Shown here: piece after piece, positions 12,407-23,074 of the stretch
How the letters are laid out: every line of letters starts with the position of its first letter
How positions within the stretch are numbered: the first letter of the stretch is position 1
Origin: Clostridia bacterium
GTDB lineage: Bacteria; Bacillota; Clostridia; Oscillospirales; CAG-272
Assembly: GCA_017463485.1 (NCBI GenBank)
Contig: JAFTPD010000007.1
Location: 62,001 to 126,000 of the forward strand
Length of the DNA stretch: 64,000 nt
Direction of reading: 5' to 3'
Made by a program: the position numbers and the translations under genes
The notes under the pieces: model-generated
The model's input: the letters and a program-made list of their open reading frames with translations, nothing else
Told to the model about the DNA's origin: nothing
The model's database searches: none

Positions 12407-13372
12407 ATGGATCAAAAAATCAAGGTTTTCATAGACGGCAAGGAGGGCACGACAGGCCTTCAGATATACGACCGAATGATGGCACGCGGCGACGTTGAGC
12501 TTTTGCTTTTGCCCGACGAACTTCGAAAGGACGTAGATGCCCGACGTGAATTTATAAATAAAAGCGACGTGACCTTCCTCTGTCTGCCCGACGCGGCGGC
12601 TATCGAGGCGGCGGCGCTGTGTCAAAACGACAAGACAATAATAATCGATGCCTCCACCGCACACCGAACCGATCCCAATTGGGATTACGGCTTTCCCGAG
12701 CTGTCAGCGGCTCACCGCGAGGCAATCAAGGTCAGCCGACGTATCGCAAACCCCGGCTGTCACGCCAGCGGATTTTTAGCCCTTGTTTATCCGCTTGTGA
12801 AAATGGGCATTATTGCTCCCGATTATCCGCTGGTTTCTTATTCTCTGACGGGCTACTCGGGCGGCGGCAAAAAGATGATTGCCGAATACGAGGCGGCAGA
12901 CCGCGACGTTTTGCTTGACTCCCCGCGGCAGTACGCCATAGGGCAGACTCACAAGCACCTGCGCGAGATGCAGGCGGTTGCGGGACTGACTCATCCCCCC
13001 GTTTTCTCCCCCATTGTCGGCGACTTCGCACAGGGCATGGAGGTCAGCGTTCCGCTTTACGGACATTTGATGAGCGGCGTTTCAAGTCTTGAGGAATTGC
13101 ATGCCAAATTCTGCGAATATTACAAGGGACAGCCTATGGTAGAGGTCCTCCCGCTTATGGGCGAGGGTATGCTTGACCGTGGCTTTGTTCCCTCGAACAT
13201 GTACGCGGGTGACAACCGTATGCATATTCTGGTTGCGGGAAATCTTAAGGACGGCGAGGGCAGAGTTCTGCTTTGCGCGCTGTTTGATAATCTGGGCAAG
13301 GGCGCTTCGGGCGCGGCTGTGCAGAATATGAATATCGCACTCGGACTTGACGAGTGTATGGGACTTATCTGA
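12407..13372 (+). CDS. argC: N-acetyl-gamma-glutamyl-phosphate reductase
   Basis: This 321-residue enzyme reduces N-acetylglutamyl phosphate to the semialdehyde with NADPH, the third step of arginine synthesis. The N-terminal KVFIDGKEGTTGLQI segment is the dinucleotide-binding region typical of the short (type 2) ArgC enzymes, and the catalytic Cys lies in NPGCHASGF. The ATG follows a CGGAGGAG ribosome site. It is the first gene of argC-argJ-argB-argD-argF with gaps of only 13-25 nt, so one transcript is likely. Confidence 0.95.
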   Translation: MDQKIKVFIDGKEGTTGLQIYDRMMARGDVELLLLPDELRKDVDARREFINKSDVTFLCLPDAAAIEAAALCQNDKTIIIDASTAHRTDPNWDYGFPELSAAHREAIKVSRRIANPGCHASGFLALVYPLVKMGIIAPDYPLVSYSLTGYSGGGKKMIAEYEAADRDVLLDSPRQYAIGQTHKHLREMQAVAGLTHPPVFSPIVGDFAQGMEVSVPLYGHLMSGVSSLEELHAKFCEYYKGQPMVEVLPLMGEGMLDRGFVPSNMYAGDNRMHILVAGNLKDGEGRVLLCALFDNLGKGASGAAVQNMNIALGLDECMGLI

Positions 13373-13393: not shown

Positions 13394-14614
13394 ATGAATT
13401 TTATATACTCCGACAAGGGAATTTGTCTTCCCCGCGGCTTCCGCGCTTCGGGAATACACTGCGGCATCCGCAAAAATAAAACCAAACGTGACCTTGCGCT
13501 TATTGTCAGTGACGTGCGCTGTGCGGCGGCGGCTCTTTACACATCAAATCTTGTTAAGGGCGCACCCATTACCGTTACCAAGCGAAATATTGGCGACGGC
13601 TACGCGCAGGCGGTGATCGCTAACAGCGGAAACGCCAACACCTGCAACGCAAACGGTATTGAGATCGCCGAGCGTATGTGCGCTCTGGTTGAAAAGCACA
13701 CGGGAATTCCCGCCGCTGACGTTGTGGTGGCATCCACGGGCGTTATCGGTCAGCCGCTCGACATAACCCCTATTGAGGGCGGAATGGACGAGCTTGTCGC
13801 AAATCTTGGATACGATAACAGCGTCCACGCAAACGAGGGAATTATGACTACGGACGTAAAGACCAAATCCGTAGCCGTTAGCTTTGAGCTTGACGGAAAA
13901 ACTTGCTCCGTCGGCGGAATTGCCAAGGGCTCAGGCATGATACACCCCAACCTTGCGACCATGCTCGTTTTCCTCACCACAGACGTTGCCATCACCCCCG
14001 AAATGCTCAAAAAGGCACTGGTCTGCGACGTTGCCGATACCTTTAACATGACCAGCGTTGACGGCGACACCTCCACCAACGACACCCTTTGCATTCTTGC
14101 AAACGGCATGGCGGGCAACGCGCTTATCGACTGTGACGGCGAGAGCTTTGAAATATTCAAATCCGCCCTCCACGCGCTGACCTCCAAAATGTGCAAGATG
14201 ATTGCCGAGGACGGAGAAGGTGCGACTCATCTGCTTATCTCCACTGTTACGGGCGGCAAGACCAAGGACGATGCGCGCAAAATAGCAAAGAGCATTGTTT
14301 GCTCCTCGCTTACAAAGGCGGCTATTTTCGGCGCTGACGCTAACTGGGGTCGCGTGCTTTGCGCTATCGGTTACAGCGGCGCTGACGTAAATATCGACGG
14401 CGTTGACGTTGATTTCGTTTCTTCGGCGGGCGAGATAGCAGTCTGCCGCGGCGGTGCGGGAGTTGAATTCTCGGAGAAAAAAGCCAAGGAGATATTGCTC
14501 CAAAAGGAGATCACCGTCAGAGTCACTCTCCACGACGGCGACGCGAGCGCAGAGGCTTACGGCTGTGACCTTACTTATGATTACGTCAAAATAAACGGCG
14601 ACTACAGAACTTAA
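13394..14614 (+). CDS. argJ: Bifunctional ornithine acetyltransferase / N-acetylglutamate synthase
   Basis: This 406-residue enzyme transfers the acetyl group of acetylornithine back to glutamate, and in many species can also acetylate glutamate from acetyl-CoA. The autoproteolysis and nucleophile site is visible in KGSGMIHPNLATMLVFLTTD, where cleavage before the Thr of ATM makes alpha and beta chains. Its presence shows that the organism uses the acetyl-recycling route, so neither argA nor argE is strictly needed. Ribosome site GAAAGGAA precedes the ATG. Confidence 0.96.
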   Translation: MNFIYSDKGICLPRGFRASGIHCGIRKNKTKRDLALIVSDVRCAAAALYTSNLVKGAPITVTKRNIGDGYAQAVIANSGNANTCNANGIEIAERMCALVEKHTGIPAADVVVASTGVIGQPLDITPIEGGMDELVANLGYDNSVHANEGIMTTDVKTKSVAVSFELDGKTCSVGGIAKGSGMIHPNLATMLVFLTTDVAITPEMLKKALVCDVADTFNMTSVDGDTSTNDTLCILANGMAGNALIDCDGESFEIFKSALHALTSKMCKMIAEDGEGATHLLISTVTGGKTKDDARKIAKSIVCSSLTKAAIFGADANWGRVLCAIGYSGADVNIDGVDVDFVSSAGEIAVCRGGAGVEFSEKKAKEILLQKEITVRVTLHDGDASAEAYGCDLTYDYVKINGDYRT

Positions 14615-14627
14615 AGCGGAGGCTATT

Positions 14628-15476
14628 ATGATCAGCAACGAAATAAAATCACAGGTGCTTATTCAGGCACTCCCCTACATCAAAAAATATTCGGGACAGA
14701 TCGTAGTTATCAAATACGGCGGAAACGCGATGATAAACGAGGAGCTGAAGGATGCCGTTATGAACGATATCGTTCTGCTCACTCAGATCGGCATCAAGGT
14801 CGTGCTGGTACACGGCGGCGGCCCTGAAATCTCTGCGGCTCTCAAGCAGATGAACATTCAGTCCACCTTCGTGGGCGGTCTGCGTAAGACCGACGAGGAA
14901 ACCGTAAAGGTAGTGCAGATGGTGCTGGCGGGAAAGGTCAACAAGGATCTTGTCAACCTCATTCAGCTTCGCGGCGGAAACGCTATCGGACTTTGCGGAA
15001 TTGACGGTCACATGCTCACCGCAGAGAAGATAAACGACGACCTCGGCTTTGTCGGCGACATTACCGAAGTCAATTCAAAGCCAATACTTGACGCGCTCTC
15101 GCTCGGCTACATACCCGTTATCTCCTCCGTTGCCTGCGACGGCGACGGCAACGTATATAATGTCAACGCGGACACTGCGGCGGCAAAGATTGCGGGCGAG
15201 CTTCGCGCTCACAGCATGATCTCGCTGACAGATATCGAAGGCTTGCTGGAGGACGTCAACGACCCCGCATCCCTTATCCCCGACGTATCTATCGGACAAG
15301 TTCCGAGAATGATAAAGGAGGGCATCATATCCGGCGGTATGATCCCCAAGATCGACTGCTGTGTCGAGGCTATCCGCCGCGGCGTAAAGCAGGTTGCCAT
15401 TATCGACGGCAGAGTGCCGCACTCCATTTTGGTGGAGCTGCTCTCGGACAAGGGTATCGGCACGCTGTTCCATTAA
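14628..15476 (+). CDS. argB: Acetylglutamate kinase
   Basis: This 282-residue amino acid kinase phosphorylates N-acetylglutamate. The nucleotide and substrate loops VIKYGGNAM and VHGGGPEIS are present, as is the C-terminal GMIPKIDCC segment with the conserved Lys. In cyclic arginine pathways this kinase is usually the step inhibited by arginine; such regulation is not directly visible here. The gene starts 13 nt after argJ with a GCGGAGG ribosome site. Confidence 0.96.
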   Translation: MISNEIKSQVLIQALPYIKKYSGQIVVIKYGGNAMINEELKDAVMNDIVLLTQIGIKVVLVHGGGPEISAALKQMNIQSTFVGGLRKTDEETVKVVQMVLAGKVNKDLVNLIQLRGGNAIGLCGIDGHMLTAEKINDDLGFVGDITEVNSKPILDALSLGYIPVISSVACDGDGNVYNVNADTAAAKIAGELRAHSMISLTDIEGLLEDVNDPASLIPDVSIGQVPRMIKEGIISGGMIPKIDCCVEAIRRGVKQVAIIDGRVPHSILVELLSDKGIGTLFH

Positions 15477-15501
15477 AATTCCTTTACCGAAAGGCGTTTT
15501 C

Positions 15502-16671
15502 ATGAATATAAACGAGATAAAAAAAGACGACGGCGAATTTATTGCCAACACCTACGCCCGCTTTGATCTGCTGCTTGATTCTGCAGAGAACGGCTTGCTG
15601 TGCGGAGAGGGCAAAAAATATATTGATTTTGGAAGCGGAATCGGCGTTTCCGCATTTGGAGTTTCGGACGAGATTTGGGCGGATGCCGTGTGCGAGCAGG
15701 CGCGAAAGCTCTCTCACACCTCCAACCTCTACTACACTGCTCCCTGCGTGGAGCTTGCCAAGAAGCTTTGCACCCGCACGGGCATGAAAAAGGTATTCTT
15801 CGGCAATTCGGGTGCGGAGGCAAACGAGTGCGCTATCAAGACCGCGCGCAAATATTCCTGCGACAAGTACGGTGCTGACGCCAAGAGATACACCGTTGTA
15901 ACTCTTGTAAACTCCTTCCACGGTCGGACAATGCTGACCCTTGCCGCAACAGGGCAGGACGTTTTCCACACCGACTTCTATCCCTTCCCCGAAGGATTCA
16001 AGCACACCCCCGCAAACGACATTGAAGCACTCAAGGCGGCACTGACGGATGATGTTTGTGCGCTTATGATAGAGTGCGTGCAGGGCGAGGGCGGAGTTCT
16101 TCCGCTTGACGCCGAGTTTGTCACGGCGGCAAGAACACTGTGCGACGAAAGAGATATTCTTCTTATCGTGGACGAGGTACAGACGGGCAACGGACGCACG
16201 GGCGCGCTTTACGCCTACATGAATTTCGGCATAATCCCCGACATTGTTACCACCGCAAAGGGACTTGGCGGCGGGTTGCCTATCGGCGCGTGCATGATGG
16301 GCGAGAAGGTTGAAAACACTATGACCGCAGGCAAGCACGGCTCTACCTTCGGCGGAAATCCTATCGCCGCGGCGGGTGCTGTCACCGTCATTGACAGGCT
16401 GGACGACGAATTTCTCGCTACGGTGCGTGAAAAGTCAGCGTATCTTAAAGAAAAGCTTTCAAAGATCAACGGTATTCATTCCGTGTCGGGCATGGGACTT
16501 ATGCTCGGACTTGAGGTGGACGACGCAAAAGCGGTGCTTAAAAAATGTCTTGAGCGCGGACTTCTTGTGCTGACGGCTAAAACAAAGCTCCGCTTGCTCC
16601 CTCCCCTCAACATTACCTATGAACAGATTGACGAGGCGGTAGCTATTATCGCCGACGCATTGAGCGAATAA
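15502..16671 (+). CDS. argD: Acetylornithine aminotransferase
   Basis: This 389-residue class III PLP-dependent aminotransferase converts N-acetylglutamate semialdehyde to N-acetylornithine. The PLP-lysine is in TTAKGLGGGLPIGA, the phosphate-binding segment is GNSGAEANECAIK, and VDEVQTGNGRTG carries the Asp that contacts the PLP ring. The ATG at 15502 is chosen because the in-frame extension upstream would run into argB. It may also act in lysine synthesis (succinyl- or acetyl-DAP transamination), as ArgD does in some bacteria. Confidence 0.94.
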   Translation: MNINEIKKDDGEFIANTYARFDLLLDSAENGLLCGEGKKYIDFGSGIGVSAFGVSDEIWADAVCEQARKLSHTSNLYYTAPCVELAKKLCTRTGMKKVFFGNSGAEANECAIKTARKYSCDKYGADAKRYTVVTLVNSFHGRTMLTLAATGQDVFHTDFYPFPEGFKHTPANDIEALKAALTDDVCALMIECVQGEGGVLPLDAEFVTAARTLCDERDILLIVDEVQTGNGRTGALYAYMNFGIIPDIVTTAKGLGGGLPIGACMMGEKVENTMTAGKHGSTFGGNPIAAAGAVTVIDRLDDEFLATVREKSAYLKEKLSKINGIHSVSGMGLMLGLEVDDAKAVLKKCLERGLLVLTAKTKLRLLPPLNITYEQIDEAVAIIADALSE

Positions 16672-16693: not shown

Positions 16694-17599
16694 ATGAACC
16701 ATTTTCTCACGCTTATGGACTGCACCCCCGAGGAGATAGTAGATCTCCTTGACGTGGCGGATCAGCTCAAATACGAAAATCACCACAACATTCCCCACAA
16801 GCACCTCGACGGCTGCACGCTGGGAATGATATTCGCAAAATCCTCTACCCGTACCCGCGTTTCCTTTGAGGTGGGTATGTATCAGCTTGGCGGCCAGGCA
16901 CTCTTTCTGTCCTCCAACGACATTCAGCTTGGTCGCGGCGAGCCCGTAAGAGATACCGCTCGCGTGCTTTCACGCTACCTTGACGGTATTATGATAAGAA
17001 CCTTCAAGCAGTCGGATGTTGAGGAGCTTGCAAGTTACGGCTCTATCCCGATCATCAACGGTCTTACCGACTACTGCCACCCCTGTCAGGTGCTGGCGGA
17101 TCTGCAAACCATCCGCGAGTACAAAAAATCCTTCAAGGGACTCAAGCTTACCTTTATCGGCGACGGTAACAATATGGCAAACTCCCTTATCGTAGGCAGT
17201 ATCAAGATGGGTATGCAGTGCGCTATCGCCTGCCCCAAGACCCACCAGCCCGACGAAGCTCTTATGAAATGGGGCTTTGATCAAGGTCTGCTCACCGTCA
17301 CCGACAATATCGAAGAAGCGGCGGCAGGCGCGGATATCCTCTATACCGACGTATGGGCAAGCATGGGTCAGGAGGCAGAGGCTGAACGCCGCAAGAAGAT
17401 CTTCGCAGGCTTCCAGATAAACTCCAAGGTGATGGAGGCGGCTAACCCCGACGCTATGGTCCTCCACTGCCTCCCCGCTCACAGAGGCGAGGAAATCACC
17501 GACGACGTCCTTGAATCCCACGCCGATAATATCTTCGACGAAGCAGAAAATCGCCTCCACGCCCAAAAGGCTGTTATGCTTACTTTGATGAGAAAGTGA
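16694..17599 (+). CDS. argF: Ornithine carbamoyltransferase
   Basis: This 301-residue enzyme makes citrulline from ornithine and carbamoyl phosphate. The carbamoyl-phosphate loop SSTRTRVSFE and the ornithine-loop motif HCLPAHRGEEI are present; the HPCQ motif is also seen (CHPCQVLAD). It directly consumes the product of the carAB genes that follow after a 331-bp gap. The gap holds a dispersed repeat and no gene, so carAB may have its own promoter or depend on read-through. Confidence 0.96.
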   Translation: MNHFLTLMDCTPEEIVDLLDVADQLKYENHHNIPHKHLDGCTLGMIFAKSSTRTRVSFEVGMYQLGGQALFLSSNDIQLGRGEPVRDTARVLSRYLDGIMIRTFKQSDVEELASYGSIPIINGLTDYCHPCQVLADLQTIREYKKSFKGLKLTFIGDGNNMANSLIVGSIKMGMQCAIACPKTHQPDEALMKWGFDQGLLTVTDNIEEAAAGADILYTDVWASMGQEAEAERRKKIFAGFQINSKVMEAANPDAMVLHCLPAHRGEEITDDVLESHADNIFDEAENRLHAQKAVMLTLMRK

Positions 17600-17930: not shown

Positions 17931-19022
17931 ATGAAAAAGGTCTATCTGATTCTTCAAAACGGCAGGATCTTTGAGGGCAGAGCATTTGGCGCAGACGGCC
18001 AAGTGTGCGGAGAACTCGTTTTCTCTACCGGTGTTACAGGCTACCTTCAATCTTTGACCGACCCGTCCTATTACGGGCAAATCTTGGTTCAAACCTTTCC
18101 CTTGATCGGCAACTACGGTTTAGTTCCCGAGGAATTCGAATCCCCCGACACTCACCTTGCGGGCTACGTCGTCCGCGAATGCTGTGATGCCCCGTCAAAC
18201 TATCGCTGTAAGGGTAGACTTGACGAATGGCTGAAGGAACGCGGCGTGGTGGGAATATGCGGCGTTGACACACGCGCGCTGACCGCCGTCATCCGCGAAT
18301 ATGGCTCTATGAAGGCTATCATTACGGACACACCGCCCGCTGAGAATTCTCTTCCCGACGAGCTGACCGTATACAGCGTGCGCGAGACGTCAAAGAATGC
18401 GGTCGCGGCAGTAAGCTGTAAAGAGCCTGAAGTCTTCGCTCCCGCAAACGCAAAATTCAAGGTTGCTCTTTACGATTTCGGAGTAAAAAAGAGTCTTATC
18501 CTCTCCTTGCTTGAAAATGGCTGCTCCGTAACTCTCCTTCCCTACAACACCCCTGCGTCCGAGGTACTCTCGGGCGGCTATGACGGCGTCGTGCTGTCGG
18601 GCGGCCCGGGTAACCCTGAGGACGATCCGCAGGTTATTATTGAAATTCGCAAGCTCATCTCAAAGCTGCCCATTCTGGCAACCGGACTTGGATTCCAGCT
18701 TCTCGCTCTGTCGGTGGGCGCGTCCACGTCCAAGCTCAAATGCGGACACCGCGGCTCAAATCAGCCCGTCCGCGACCTGTCGCTTGACATCTGCTGCACC
18801 ACCTACCAAAATCACGGATACACCGTGGATGCGGCAACGCTGCCTCCCTATGCGCGCGTCAGCTTTGTGAACGTAAACGACGGCTCGGTCGAGGGTATCG
18901 ACTACCCCGCGCACCGCGCGATCTCGGTACAGTTCGACCCCGAAATGGACGGTCCGAAAAATCACCGCCGACTGTTTGATGAGTTTGTTGCCATGATGGC
19001 AAATACGGAGAAAGGAGAATAA
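17931..19022 (+). CDS. carA: Carbamoyl-phosphate synthetase small subunit with an inactivated glutaminase site
   Basis: This 363-residue protein has the CarA architecture: an N-terminal domain (to about residue 150, with TGVTGYLQSLTDPSYYGQ) and a class I glutamine amidotransferase domain. The family nucleophile Cys (LGICLGHQ context; E. coli Cys269) is Gly252 here, in ATGLGFQLL; the following His is Phe255; and the catalytic His of QFHPE (E. coli His353) is Asp336 in QFDPE. Glu338 is kept. The codons are GGA and GAC. Glutamine hydrolysis should therefore be impossible, and the protein may only support an ammonia-using CarB. The ATG has an AAGGAG ribosome site 10 nt upstream. Confidence 0.93.
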   Translation: MKKVYLILQNGRIFEGRAFGADGQVCGELVFSTGVTGYLQSLTDPSYYGQILVQTFPLIGNYGLVPEEFESPDTHLAGYVVRECCDAPSNYRCKGRLDEWLKERGVVGICGVDTRALTAVIREYGSMKAIITDTPPAENSLPDELTVYSVRETSKNAVAAVSCKEPEVFAPANAKFKVALYDFGVKKSLILSLLENGCSVTLLPYNTPASEVLSGGYDGVVLSGGPGNPEDDPQVIIEIRKLISKLPILATGLGFQLLALSVGASTSKLKCGHRGSNQPVRDLSLDICCTTYQNHGYTVDAATLPPYARVSFVNVNDGSVEGIDYPAHRAISVQFDPEMDGPKNHRRLFDEFVAMMANTEKGE

Positions 19023-19024
19023 CC

Positions 19025-22000
19025 ATGCCGCTTGATAAGTCTATTAAAAAGGTTTTAGTTATCGGCTCGGGTCCTATCGTTATCGGTCAGGCAGCCGAAT
19101 TCGACTACGCAGGCGCGCAGGCGTGCCGCGTGCTGAAATCCCGAGGTATTGACGTAGTTCTTCTCAACTCCAACCCCGCGACTATTATGACGGACAAGGC
19201 TCTCGCCAACGAGATATACCTTGAGCCGCTTACCCTTACAACAGTTAAGCGCATAATCGAAAAGGAAAAGCCGGACTCTATTCTCGCCACACTCGGCGGT
19301 CAGACGGGACTTACCCTTGCTATGCAGCTTTACAAGGAAGGCTTCTTTGAAACGCATAACGTCCGCCTGCTGGGTACTGACGCCGAGGCTATCATCAAGG
19401 CAGAAGACAGAGAGCTTTTCAAGGACACCATGCTGAAAATCGGTCAGCCTCTCATTCCCTCGGATATTGCCGAAACGCTTGACGAGGCGAAGGAGATCGC
19501 CACCCGTATCGGTTACCCCGTTATCATTCGACCCGCGTTTACCCTCGGCGGTTTTGGCGGCGGCGTTGCAGACAATGAGGAGGAGCTTTGCGAGGTCGCG
19601 GCAAACGGACTTGAACAGTCCCCCATCACGCAGATTCTGGTTGAAAAATATATATACGGCTGGAAGGAGATCGAGTTTGAGGTCATCCGTGACCACAAGG
19701 GCAACCACCTTGCGGTCTGCTCCATGGAAAACGTTGACCCCGTAGGTGTTCACACGGGCGACTCTATCGTCGTAGCTCCCGCTATGACCTTGGCGGCAGA
19801 GGAATACAACATGCTCCGCACCGCTTCACTTGACATTATTGACGAGCTGGGCATTGAGGGCGGCTGTAACTGTCAGTTCGCGCTTGATCCCGTGTCCAAG
19901 CAGTACGCTGTTATCGAGGTTAACCCCCGCGTTTCCCGTTCCTCCGCGCTTGCATCCAAGGCGACGGGATATCCCATCGCAAAGGTGTCGGTACAGATAG
20001 CCCTCGGATACACCCTTGACGAGATAAAGAACGAAGTCACGGGCAAGACCTTTGCTTGCTTTGAGCCTACCGTTGACTACGTGGTGCTGAAAATGCCCAA
20101 GTGGCCCTTTGATAAGTTCGCACAGTCCACTCGATTGCTCGGAACTCAGATGAAGGCAACGGGCGAGGTCATGAGCATTGCTCCCTCCTTTGAGGAGGCG
20201 CTGATGAAGGCGGTAAGAGGTGCGGAAATTTCGCAGGACACCCTCAACTGCAAGCTCGACCTTCTTGGCGACGATCCTTACGCCGCTCTCGGAAGGAACG
20301 ACGACAGACGCCTGTTCCGCATCTTCGCGGCTCTCAAGGCAGGTATTTCCATTGACGACATTTACACTATCACAAAGATTGATAAATTCTTCCTCTCCAA
20401 GCTCGCCGCTCTGGCAGACTTTGAAAAAGAGCTTGCTACGGTTAAGAATATTGGCGAGGAGCTTTATACAAAGGCAAAGAAGCTGGGCTACACCGACGAG
20501 GCTATCAGCCGTATTTCGGGTATTGACTCCCTTCCCGCACACCGCGCGACCTGCTACAAGATGGTTGACACCTGCGGCGGCGAGTTTATGGCAGAGCGCC
20601 CCTACTTCTACGGCACACACGACGACATATCGGGCGACGAAACCAAGCCCTTTATGAATCCCGACAAAAAGACGGTTGTTGTTCTCGGCTCAGGACCTAT
20701 CCGTATCGGTCAGGGTATCGAGTTTGACTACTCCTCCGTCCACTGCGTATGGGCGCTCAAGGATATGGGCTACGACGTTGCTATCATCAACAACAACCCC
20801 GAAACCGTTTCCACCGACTTCGATATTGCGGACAGACTCTACTTCGAGCCGCTTACCCCCGAGGATGTGTGGGACATTCTGCAGCTTGAAAAGCCTATCG
20901 GCGTCGTAGTTGCGTTTGGCGGTCAGACAGCTATCAAGCTGACGGGCTTCCTCGACAAGATGGGCGTTCCCGTGCTTGGAACTTCGGCTGACGGTATTGA
21001 CCTTGCCGAGGACAGAGCAAGATTTGACGCGCTGCTTGAATCCATGAACATTCGCCGCCCCTCGGGTATGGGTGTTTCCACCCTTGAGGAGGCACTCAAT
21101 GCAGGCGCGACTCTCGGATATCCCGTTCTCCTCCGTCCCTCTTACGTTATCGGCGGTCAGAACATGGTTATCGCTCACGAGCCGGCAGACGTTGAAAAAT
21201 ATATGAACAAGATACTGTCCACGGGAATTGACAACCCTGTTCTCGTCGATAAGTATATGATGGGCACGGAGCTTGAGGTTGACGTTATCTCCGACGGCAA
21301 GGACGTTCTTATCCCGGGTATCATGGAGCATATCGAGCGCGCAGGCGTTCACAGCGGTGACTCTATCGCGGTATACCCGCCCTACAATCTCACCGACAAG
21401 ATGCGCGAAACCCTTTGCGAATGCTCTACAAAGCTGGCTCTCAGCCTCGGCACAAAGGGGCTTGTAAACATTCAGTACCTTATCTACGAAAACGAGCTTT
21501 ATGTTATTGAGGTAAACCCCCGCGCGTCCCGTACCATTCCTTACATCAGTAAGGTAACGGGTGTGCCTATGGTAGATATCGCTTCGCAGGTAATGGTCGG
21601 CAAGCCGCTCCGCGAGCTTCGTTACGGCACGGGACTCTACAAAGTCCCCCCCTACTGGGCAGTAAAAGTTCCTGTATTCTCCTTTGAAAAGCTGTCCGAC
21701 GTAAACACTCAGCTCGGTCCGGAAATGAAATCCACGGGCGAGGTGCTTGGAGTTGGTAAAACTCTTGACGAGGCTATATTCAAGGGCTTCGTTTCCGCAG
21801 GATTTAACCTCAAAACACCTACCGCGGCAAACGACGTCGGCGTGTTTATCTCGGTCGAGGATCACGACTATTTCGAGATCGTCGGACTCGCAAAGAAGCT
21901 GGACGACCTCGGCATGAAGCTGTACGCTACAAGCGGAACAGCGGCGGCTATCTCACAGCTTGGAATTGACGTGGAGGTGGTGGCAAATCTGACCGACGAC

Positions 22001-23074
22001 GCTCACGCCCTGCTTGAAAGCGGCAAGGTCGGCTATATCGTTTACACGGGCGCGCTGCTGGACGACACTATAAACGAGTTTATCGCCCTGCATCGCAAGG
22101 CTATCCAGCTCTCTATCGCAACACTCACCTCGCTTGACACGGCAAACGCTATGGCTGACGTTATTGCCAGCCGTTACTCTCAGTACAACACCGAGCTGGT
22201 TGACCTCAACCACATGCGCCGTGACCGCATGACTCTGCACTTTGCAAAGATGCAGACGCTTGGAAACGACTATATCTATCTTGACAATCTTGACGGAGAG
22301 TCGCAGATAAGCTGTCCCGAGTCGCTCGCGCTCAAGCTGTGTGACCGTAACTACGGAATCGGCGGCGACGGTATCGTGTTTATCGAAAGATCCAATCACT
22401 ACGACGCGAAAATGCGTATATTCAACCGCGACGGCAGTGAAGGCAGAGTTGCGGGCAACCCCTTGCGTTGCGTTGCAAAGTATCTGTACGACAAGGGACT
22501 TGTAGACGACACGGATATGGTCATTGACACATGGAGCGGACCGAGAACGGCGCACGCCATCCTTGCGGGCGGCGAGGTCGGCTCGGTAACGGTGGATATG
22601 GGCGATTACACTCTCGATCCCGCACAGCTTCCTACCACTCTGTCAGCAGACCAAATGATCGACGGCAGTATTAATATTGGCGGTGATACTTGCAGGATGA
22701 CCTGCGTTGGTATCGGTAACCCGCACGCCGTCGTGTTCGTTGGCAACGTTGACGCCGTGAACGTGGGAACGGTTGGTCCTGAGATCGAAAATCTCCCTAT
22801 CTTCCCTGAGCGTACAAACGTTGAGTTTATCCGAATTGTCAACCGTACCACAATTAAGATGCGCGTTTGGGAGCGCGGCAACGGCGAAACGCTTGCCTGC
22901 GGTTCGGGCGCGTGCGCGGCGGCTGTTGCAGCTGTTGTGAACGGACTTTGCGACACGGATAAGGATATCACGGTCAAGCTGCGCGGCGGCGACCTGCTGG
23001 TGCGTGTGAGCGACAACCACGTAAGCCTTACAGGTGACGCGAAGATGGTATTCGAAGGTACTACCGTAATTTAA
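19025..23074 (+). CDS. carB: Carbamoyl-phosphate synthetase large subunit fused to a DapF-like (diaminopimelate epimerase) domain
   Basis: This single frame of 1349 residues starts 2 nt after carA. Residues 1-1068 are a full CarB: two ATP-grasp halves, each opening with GSGPIxIGQ, an oligomerisation part, and a C-terminal MGS-like allosteric domain ending in SLDTANAMADVI. Residues 1069-1349 are a full-length DapF: FAKMQTLGNDYIY, GIGGDG, and the second catalytic Cys in ACGSGACAA (Cys1292). The first catalytic Cys is Ala1143 in RVAGNPLRC, where active enzymes have CGNxxRC. The Met at 1069 (22229) has no ribosome site, so a separate DapF is unlikely. CarB activity is expected; normal DapF activity is doubtful. 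Confidence 0.94.
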   Translation: MPLDKSIKKVLVIGSGPIVIGQAAEFDYAGAQACRVLKSRGIDVVLLNSNPATIMTDKALANEIYLEPLTLTTVKRIIEKEKPDSILATLGGQTGLTLAMQLYKEGFFETHNVRLLGTDAEAIIKAEDRELFKDTMLKIGQPLIPSDIAETLDEAKEIATRIGYPVIIRPAFTLGGFGGGVADNEEELCEVAANGLEQSPITQILVEKYIYGWKEIEFEVIRDHKGNHLAVCSMENVDPVGVHTGDSIVVAPAMTLAAEEYNMLRTASLDIIDELGIEGGCNCQFALDPVSKQYAVIEVNPRVSRSSALASKATGYPIAKVSVQIALGYTLDEIKNEVTGKTFACFEPTVDYVVLKMPKWPFDKFAQSTRLLGTQMKATGEVMSIAPSFEEALMKAVRGAEISQDTLNCKLDLLGDDPYAALGRNDDRRLFRIFAALKAGISIDDIYTITKIDKFFLSKLAALADFEKELATVKNIGEELYTKAKKLGYTDEAISRISGIDSLPAHRATCYKMVDTCGGEFMAERPYFYGTHDDISGDETKPFMNPDKKTVVVLGSGPIRIGQGIEFDYSSVHCVWALKDMGYDVAIINNNPETVSTDFDIADRLYFEPLTPEDVWDILQLEKPIGVVVAFGGQTAIKLTGFLDKMGVPVLGTSADGIDLAEDRARFDALLESMNIRRPSGMGVSTLEEALNAGATLGYPVLLRPSYVIGGQNMVIAHEPADVEKYMNKILSTGIDNPVLVDKYMMGTELEVDVISDGKDVLIPGIMEHIERAGVHSGDSIAVYPPYNLTDKMRETLCECSTKLALSLGTKGLVNIQYLIYENELYVIEVNPRASRTIPYISKVTGVPMVDIASQVMVGKPLRELRYGTGLYKVPPYWAVKVPVFSFEKLSDVNTQLGPEMKSTGEVLGVGKTLDEAIFKGFVSAGFNLKTPTAANDVGVFISVEDHDYFEIVGLAKKLDDLGMKLYATSGTAAAISQLGIDVEVVANLTDDAHALLESGKVGYIVYTGALLDDTINEFIALHRKAIQLSIATLTSLDTANAMADVIASRYSQYNTELVDLNHMRRDRMTLHFAKMQTLGNDYIYLDNLDGESQISCPESLALKLCDRNYGIGGDGIVFIERSNHYDAKMRIFNRDGSEGRVAGNPLRCVAKYLYDKGLVDDTDMVIDTWSGPRTAHAILAGGEVGSVTVDMGDYTLDPAQLPTTLSADQMIDGSINIGGDTCRMTCVGIGNPHAVVFVGNVDAVNVGTVGPEIENLPIFPERTNVEFIRIVNRTTIKMRVWERGNGETLACGSGACAAAVAAVVNGLCDTDKDITVKLRGGDLLVRVSDNHVSLTGDAKMVFEGTTVI

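Follow-up and report, generated by a model that had tools for sequence, protein, structure and literature searches.

A predicted ammonia-only carbamoyl phosphate synthetase with a glutaminase-dead CarA in a Clostridia arginine operon

Glutamine is the physiologically relevant nitrogen donor of the Escherichia coli carbamoyl phosphate synthetase (CPS), and ammonia use by this enzyme requires very high, likely physiologically irrelevant concentrations, according to the available text of PMC6245113. In human CPS1 the glutaminase-like domain is kept but inactive, with Ser294 in place of the Cys; the enzyme uses free ammonia, which is thought to be admitted from outside by a different route, and blocking or perforating the tunnel of the E. 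coli enzyme leaves its activity with external ammonia normal (both as given in the available text of PMC4655335). An ammonia CPS with a dead glutaminase is therefore familiar from vertebrates, and an ammonia-only bacterial CPS runs against the textbook rule for bacteria. In the open-licence literature, with most subscription papers outside the scope of the search, we found no description of a bacterial CPS of this kind that naturally depends on ammonia alone, and the bacterial, repeated and staged form of this change, accompanied by co-loss of glutamine enzymes, appears to be new.

The window (the whole stretch of 64,000 nucleotides analysed) carries, on the plus strand and in this order, argC, argJ, argB, argD, argF, carA and a carB-dapF fusion, followed by a pyruvate kinase gene (Table 1). 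By its profile matches the window CarA is a full-length bacterial CarA (PF00988, 169 bits; PF00117, 120.5 bits; NF009475, 388 bits).

Table 1. Features of the arginine and carbamoyl phosphate locus, in window positions.
Feature	Position	Strand	Basis
argC	12407..13372	+	TIGR01851
argJ	13394..14614	+	TIGR00120
argB	14628..15476	+	TIGR00761
argD	15394..16671	+	TIGR00707 match from residue 50; listed open frame, true start probably near 15502
argF, ornithine carbamoyltransferase, carbamoyl phosphate consumer	16694..17599	+	TIGR00658
carA, glutaminase-dead CPS small subunit (predicted)	17931..19022	+	363 aa; NF009475 388 bits, TIGR01368 369 bits, PF00988, PF00117
Gly252 codon GGA, at the catalytic Cys place (E. 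coli Cys269)	18684..18686	+	alignment with E. coli CarA
Phe255 codon, at the conserved His272 place	18693..18695	+	alignment with E. coli CarA
Asp336 codon GAC, at the catalytic His place (E. coli His353)	18936..18938	+	alignment with E. coli CarA
Glu338 codon, retained (E. coli Glu355)	18942..18944	+	alignment with E. coli CarA
carB-dapF fusion, 1349 aa, DapF C-terminal	19025..23074	+	NF003671 1387 bits over 1-1050; TIGR00652 262 bits over 1072-1347; PF02787, PF01678

Alignment with E. coli CarA confirmed what the first-pass annotation had read from the letters alone, namely that Gly stands in the place of the catalytic Cys, Phe in that of the next His and Asp in that of the catalytic His, with the Glu retained. 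Instead of the Cys269-His353-Glu355 triad of a glutamine-hydrolysing CPS (CPS II) the protein thus has Gly252, Asp336 and Glu338, and in sequence it has the marks of an ammonia-dependent CPS, in which the glutaminase domain is there but catalytically incomplete. Because the available text of PMC6245113 names Cys269 and His353, and not His272, as essential in CarA, we treat Phe255 as a side detail. Asn240, found in 64 of 64 live copies scored across the family, is replaced by Gly, and Gly241, Gly243 and Asn311 are retained. Also retained are Ser47 and Lys202, which we take to be parts of the glutamine site. Judged from these residues, the known glutaminase reaction is impossible for the window CarA, yet the protein is under selection.

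The latter point follows from a sister genome (G003, 95% complete), whose CarA differs from that of the window's genome (G000) at 10 amino acids, 7 of them within residues 153-185. The comparison gave dN 0.014 and dS 0.154, a dN/dS of 0.093 that rests on 11.5 non-synonymous changes only; it is the highest of nine genes compared (0.018-0.092 for the other eight) and far below 1. This purifying selection on an intact 363-aa frame agrees with the earlier view that carA is maintained and not decaying. The sister carA has 50 nucleotide differences and carries the same Gly, Phe and Asp codons, so that assembly error, which the first-pass annotation had raised as a possible source of the Gly and Asp codons, is unlikely. 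The full-genome search for a second carA that it had proposed, a profile search of a 1.74 Mb draft in 21 contigs (90.8% complete) for which 14 of 14 controls were positive, returned one CarA only.

To place the change among relatives, as had also been suggested, we surveyed 196 genomes of the same family with PF00988 for CarA and PF02787 for CarB, each of which matched 14 of 14 control genomes. PF00988 was found in 100 genomes and PF02787 in 159; 64 had CarB without CarA, 5 had CarA without a CarB match and 32 had neither. From the 113 CarA matches we left out two fragments in G117, a third copy in G031 and a fragment in G086 (G117 and G086 being the two genomes left unscored) and added G010 from a genus list outside the 196, which brings the scored set to 110 copies from 99 genomes. 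Of these, 64 are live, with Cys, His and Glu all in place, and 45 are without the Cys (Gly in 34, Ser in 6, Ala in 4 and Glu in 1); the His has gone as well from 41 of the 45; one further altered copy keeps Cys and His and has Gln in place of Glu. The change is thus no peculiarity of the window's genome, and its frequency goes far beyond chance. Each of the 46 altered (dead) copies is a single open frame of at least 351 aa, and no stop occurs within the matched domain in any of the 113 CarA matches. The most relaxed columns of the altered copies are Cys269, Asn240, His353 and Ser47, then Asp362, Ile205 and Glu355, with Lys202 nineteenth; relaxation at Cys, His and Glu follows from the definition of the class, whereas that at Asn240 and Ser47 does not. 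Outside the triad, 86 columns are conserved in ≥95% of live copies; the altered copies retain them at a mean of 85%, with 92% in the N-terminal domain and 81% in the glutaminase domain. A tunnel block of the human CPS1 type, with Gln at the place of E. coli Gly293, was considered and rejected: Gln occurs there in 0 of the 46 altered copies, the window CarA has Ser and the column is variable whether a copy is live or dead.

The loss seems to have arisen more than once. On a quick CarA tree, built with the motif columns excluded, live and dead states change 13 times, with at least 7 changes forced by well-supported branches, and on a CarB tree (FastTree) the dead state changes 11 times, with at least 9 forced; several origins of dead CarA within the family are thus well supported. 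A separate origin in the window's own lineage is likely. Its CarA and that of the sister genome stand beside the live CarAs of G058 and G015 in a set of four (support 98). On the CarB tree, from which G058 and G015 are absent, the sister CarB stands beside the CarBs of G027 and G089, whose CarAs are dead (support 100), and the case for a separate loss therefore comes from the CarA tree. Nineteen dead copies of pyrimidine (pyr) type, from several genera, form one group on the CarA tree (support 82) and do not form one group on the CarB tree.

The genomes with CarB and no CarA include 37 at ≥90% completeness and ≤5% contamination. We examined 20 CarB-only loci, 17 from these 64 genomes and the others from G002, G005 and G008 of a genus list, and carA was absent from all of them. 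A pyrC-type (dihydroorotase) gene adjoins carB in 18 of the 20, and pyrK-type (17), pyrD (15), pyrE-type phosphoribosyltransferase (13), pyrF (12) and pyrB-type carbamoyltransferase (11) genes are also present, the names being taken from one scanned representative each. On the CarB tree 19 of the 20 CarB-only sequences group in a single clade, which attaches with support 84 to three CarBs paired with a dead CarA; L258, the remaining one, is a long branch whose placement is uncertain. The CarB-only class resembles the end stage in a progression from live CarA through dead CarA to no CarA. Because 19 of the 20 share one clade, we do not claim many independent losses of carA; the tree indicates one spread of the end stage. 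Columns conserved in the CarB partners of live CarA are lost from the CarB-only enzymes at 12-18% per 100-residue bin at positions 200-600, against 8-9% at 0-200, 3-5% at 600-1000 and 11% after 1000, a profile that fits loss of the CarA docking contact and is confounded by the common descent of the clade.

In the window's own fusion protein, CarB occupies about residues 1-1050 and DapF (diaminopimelate epimerase) about 1072-1347. At 29 of the scored CarA loci in the family the frame encoding CarB also gave a DapF match, and one cluster of the relatives (L238) has a separate dapF gene after carB. The CarB residue alignment took in the sister genome's CarB, not that of the window's genome, and judged on this sister the active site and tunnel gate are in place: it equals E. 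coli at 13 tested synthetase and tunnel-gate residues (R129, R169, G175, G176, E215, H243, Q285, E299, N301, R303, C232, A251 and A314), the choice of which positions matter being our own assumption. It differs at E208 (Lys), L210 (Ile), I211 (Tyr), M240 (Val) and V284 (Cys), and these letters are shared with the partners of live CarAs. No CarB change tied to ammonia use was identified among the CarBs compared.

The state of CarA is linked to two further genes of glutamine and ammonia metabolism across these drafts of varied completeness. PyrG (CTP synthase) occurs in 58 of 63 live-CarA, 0 of 35 dead-only and 5 of 64 CarB-only genomes, and Amt (ammonium transporter) in 38 of 63, 0 of 35 and 2 of 64, respectively; the dead-only class includes G153, in which Glu alone is changed, and without it both counts are 0 of 34. 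Family-wide, PyrG matches lie above the cut-off in 76 of 196 genomes and are missing from 120, those of the window and its sister included, even though CarB-only relatives retain genes of pyrimidine synthesis; the match in G150, below the cut-off, was scored absent. Among the better genomes the pattern holds for 45 live (PyrG 41, Amt 31), 18 dead-only (0, 0) and 37 CarB-only (1, 0). Live-CarA genomes are mixed with dead-only or CarB-only ones in 25 genera. When labels were shuffled within genera, a procedure that ignores kinship inside them, the observed PyrG or Amt counts were reached in 0 of 20000 shuffles; for live against dead-only genomes, with the same caveat, the figures were 0 of 20000 for PyrG and 2 of 20000 for Amt. 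Kinship between genera is therefore no explanation of the link. The exceptions are the five live-CarA genomes without PyrG and the five CarB-only genomes with it.

The window's genome carries the same deficits. Profile searches of it (90.8% complete) found no PyrG, for which no replacement was identified, no Amt and no GATase_6 domain (PF13522; 14 of 14 controls positive), and none of the three was matched in the sister genome (95% complete). PF13522 is presumably the domain carried by GlmS, PurF and AsnB, and the usual GlmS and PurF therefore seem to be missing; family-wide, its matches average 3.5 per live, 1.4 per dead-only and 1.4 per CarB-only genome. The GMP synthase GuaA (L220, G000:C2:1972-2247) has 401 aa and aligns to the GuaA model, which has 512 positions, over 196-512 only, from which we conclude that it lacks the N-terminal glutaminase half. 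Both this protein and the dead CarA are named glutamine-hydrolysing, with scores above cut-off, by NF000848 and TIGR01368, respectively; these NCBIfam names are likely a database naming error. Besides CarA, the PF00117 proteins found are a HisH-like and a PuuD-like protein, both with intact motifs. Since HisH keeps its motifs, the organism would not be wholly free of glutamine. With that reservation, the best reading of these genes is that the window's lineage has largely abandoned glutamine as a nitrogen donor.

Elsewhere in the family, 17 of the 35 dead-only genomes have, among the matches listed, GuaA frames of 172-409 aa. Across the family as a whole short frames of GuaA are frequent, and certain genomes combine, among the matches listed, a long GuaA with a short one. 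The 28 frames of at least 500 aa among the best GuaA matches have the Cys motif in 28 of 28 and the QFHPE motif in 27 of 28. In the CarB-only genome G022 a full-length GuaA (L214) has the Cys motif and is without the QFHPE motif; judging from these motifs, its glutaminase is possibly heading for loss. Among the matches listed, G022 and G062, both CarB-only and without PyrG, have GuaA frames of 519 and 513 aa, with room for a glutaminase domain, and the glutamine steps are thus not always lost together.

In some live-CarA relatives the corresponding genes are neighbours. Of the 58 live-CarA, PyrG-bearing genomes, 18 have PyrG on the same contig as a CarA, and in 15 the two are ≤5 kb apart. Twenty clusters (L231-L250), picked for holding these genes and therefore informative as to content and not frequency (for which 18 of 58 is the unbiased figure), contain PyrG (16), PurF-like (14), CarA (14), CarB (13), type III glutamine synthetase (12), full-length GuaA (12), AsnB (11), PurC (8), PurA (7), PurB (7), Amt-PII fusion (6), other glutamine synthetase (6), glutamate synthase parts (5) and ANTAR-domain (4) genes, named from one representative each or from the match positions of the CarA, CarB and PyrG searches. 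We read the clustered glutamine genes as a putative set for scarce ammonia. A wider proposal, which we hold tentatively and at slightly less than even odds, is that the family has two nitrogen economies. The glutamine set, for scarce ammonia, would comprise live CarA with CarB, PyrG, full-length GuaA, AsnB, PurF, type III glutamine synthetase, Amt-PII fusion, split glutamate synthase and an ANTAR regulator, often clustered; the ammonia set, for plenty, would comprise GuaA without its glutaminase half and either dead CarA or CarB alone. Lineages of the window's type, having lost or never had the first, would live on free ammonia alone and would need an ammonia-dependent CTP route without PyrG.

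Our main reading, to which we give a probability of about 0.8, is that the window encodes an ammonia-only CPS for arginine synthesis, in which CarB retains the dead CarA as a partner for docking, stability or regulation. CarB, fused to DapF, would form carboxyphosphate and carbamoyl phosphate as usual; since CarA is without the Cys to open glutamine, the nitrogen would be free NH3 that enters the enzyme and reaches carboxyphosphate in CarB, and CarA would serve in docking, stability, structure or regulation. Such access, and a structural or regulatory CarA, are proposed by analogy to human CPS1 and the E. coli tunnel variants. Three points of this reading are inferred, namely the in vivo use of NH3 as donor, the continued binding of CarA to CarB, and a steady supply of ammonia as the condition that permitted the change. 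As E. coli CPS needs very high ammonia (in the available text of PMC6245113), a better ammonia affinity or high internal ammonia must be assumed. Family-wide, the series from live CarA through dead CarA to a pyrimidine operon with carB and without carA is likely. The first-pass annotation's own prediction, ammonia use as in mammalian CPS I, has become the best-supported reading of the sequences, given the missing Cys and His, the single CarA, the purifying selection, the CarB residues mostly kept in the sister, the absence of Amt and PyrG matches and a GuaA without a glutaminase domain.

The explanations that compete with this reading differ in how much of the above they can absorb. Assembly or binning error could be suspected in a draft of 21 contigs, but it is in practice refuted by the codons shared with a sister carA that differs at 50 sites, and the Cys is missing from 45 copies in 42 of 99 genomes; its chance is negligible. 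Another glutaminase might pass ammonia to CarB and leave glutamine as the indirect donor, and the HisH-like and PuuD-like proteins, motifs intact, would be the candidates. We consider this very improbable, given that the HisH-like gene sits among genes read by eye as hisB, hisA and hisF, that the PuuD-like protein best fits a gamma-glutamyl-GABA hydrolase (below cut-off), that no second CarA was found in the window's genome, and that Amt and PyrG are absent along with live CarA, a pattern that speaks for ammonia.

Decay of CarA deserves more weight. On this view CarB alone works and carA is a disappearing remnant. In its favour, a CarB-only class exists (64 of 196 genomes), whose CarBs adjoin, on the CarB tree, those paired with dead CarAs; the dN/dS of carA is also the highest of nine genes, with 7 of the 10 differences from the sister crowded into residues 153-185. 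That ratio is still 0.093, however, all 46 altered copies are single frames of at least 351 aa with no stop in the matched domain of any of the 113 matches, and the 19 pyr-type dead copies group together across several genera on the CarA tree (support 82), though not on the CarB tree. We therefore judge decay unlikely, and less likely than retention of the dead CarA as a CarB partner, with the CarB-only class showing that loss can follow. Of slightly greater probability, though still on the unlikely side, is general genome reduction with auxotrophy, in which cytidine, purines and amino sugars come from neighbours and no switch to ammonia took place. A 1.74 Mb genome that lacks PyrG, with no replacement identified, and lacks PF13522 matches, so that the usual GlmS and PurF are seemingly missing, suits this account; it accommodates less readily the retention of argC, argJ, argB, argD and argF with the CPS in the window, that of pyrimidine genes at the 20 CarB-only loci and the selective trimming of GuaA, where the glutaminase half alone was dropped and the synthetase half kept.

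The family offers present-day examples of each stage, which opens the evolution of an ammonia-only CPS to experiment in several cases. The pattern predicts which bacteria of the family depend on free ammonia, and the absence of PyrG suggests either CTP biochemistry of an unknown kind or obligate salvage.

Among the systems compared, the live CarAs of the family (G058, G015 and G011) have the same domains, with G058 and G015 nearest to the window pair on the CarA tree, but unlike the window CarA they keep Cys, His and Glu, and their genomes have PyrG and Amt. E. coli CarAB has the same two subunits (CarA, 245.7 bits) and uses glutamine; dead CarA and CarB alone, which are natural here, are laboratory states there, reportedly as the Cys269-mutant and large-subunit-only forms of Rubino, Nyunoya and Lusty (1986-87). 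Vertebrate CPS I (human CPS1, PDB 5DOT and 6UEL) belongs to the same family (184.5 bits) and supplies carbamoyl phosphate for citrulline, much as the window encodes ArgF beside its CPS; activation by N-acetylglutamate is a further mark of the vertebrate enzyme. The window enzyme differs in being bacterial, in having carA and carB as separate frames and not one polypeptide, in the fusion of CarB to DapF and in the replacements themselves, Cys by Gly and His by Asp where human CPS1 has Ser294. On the best reading of these sequences, the window CPS would work like vertebrate CPS I but would have arisen separately.
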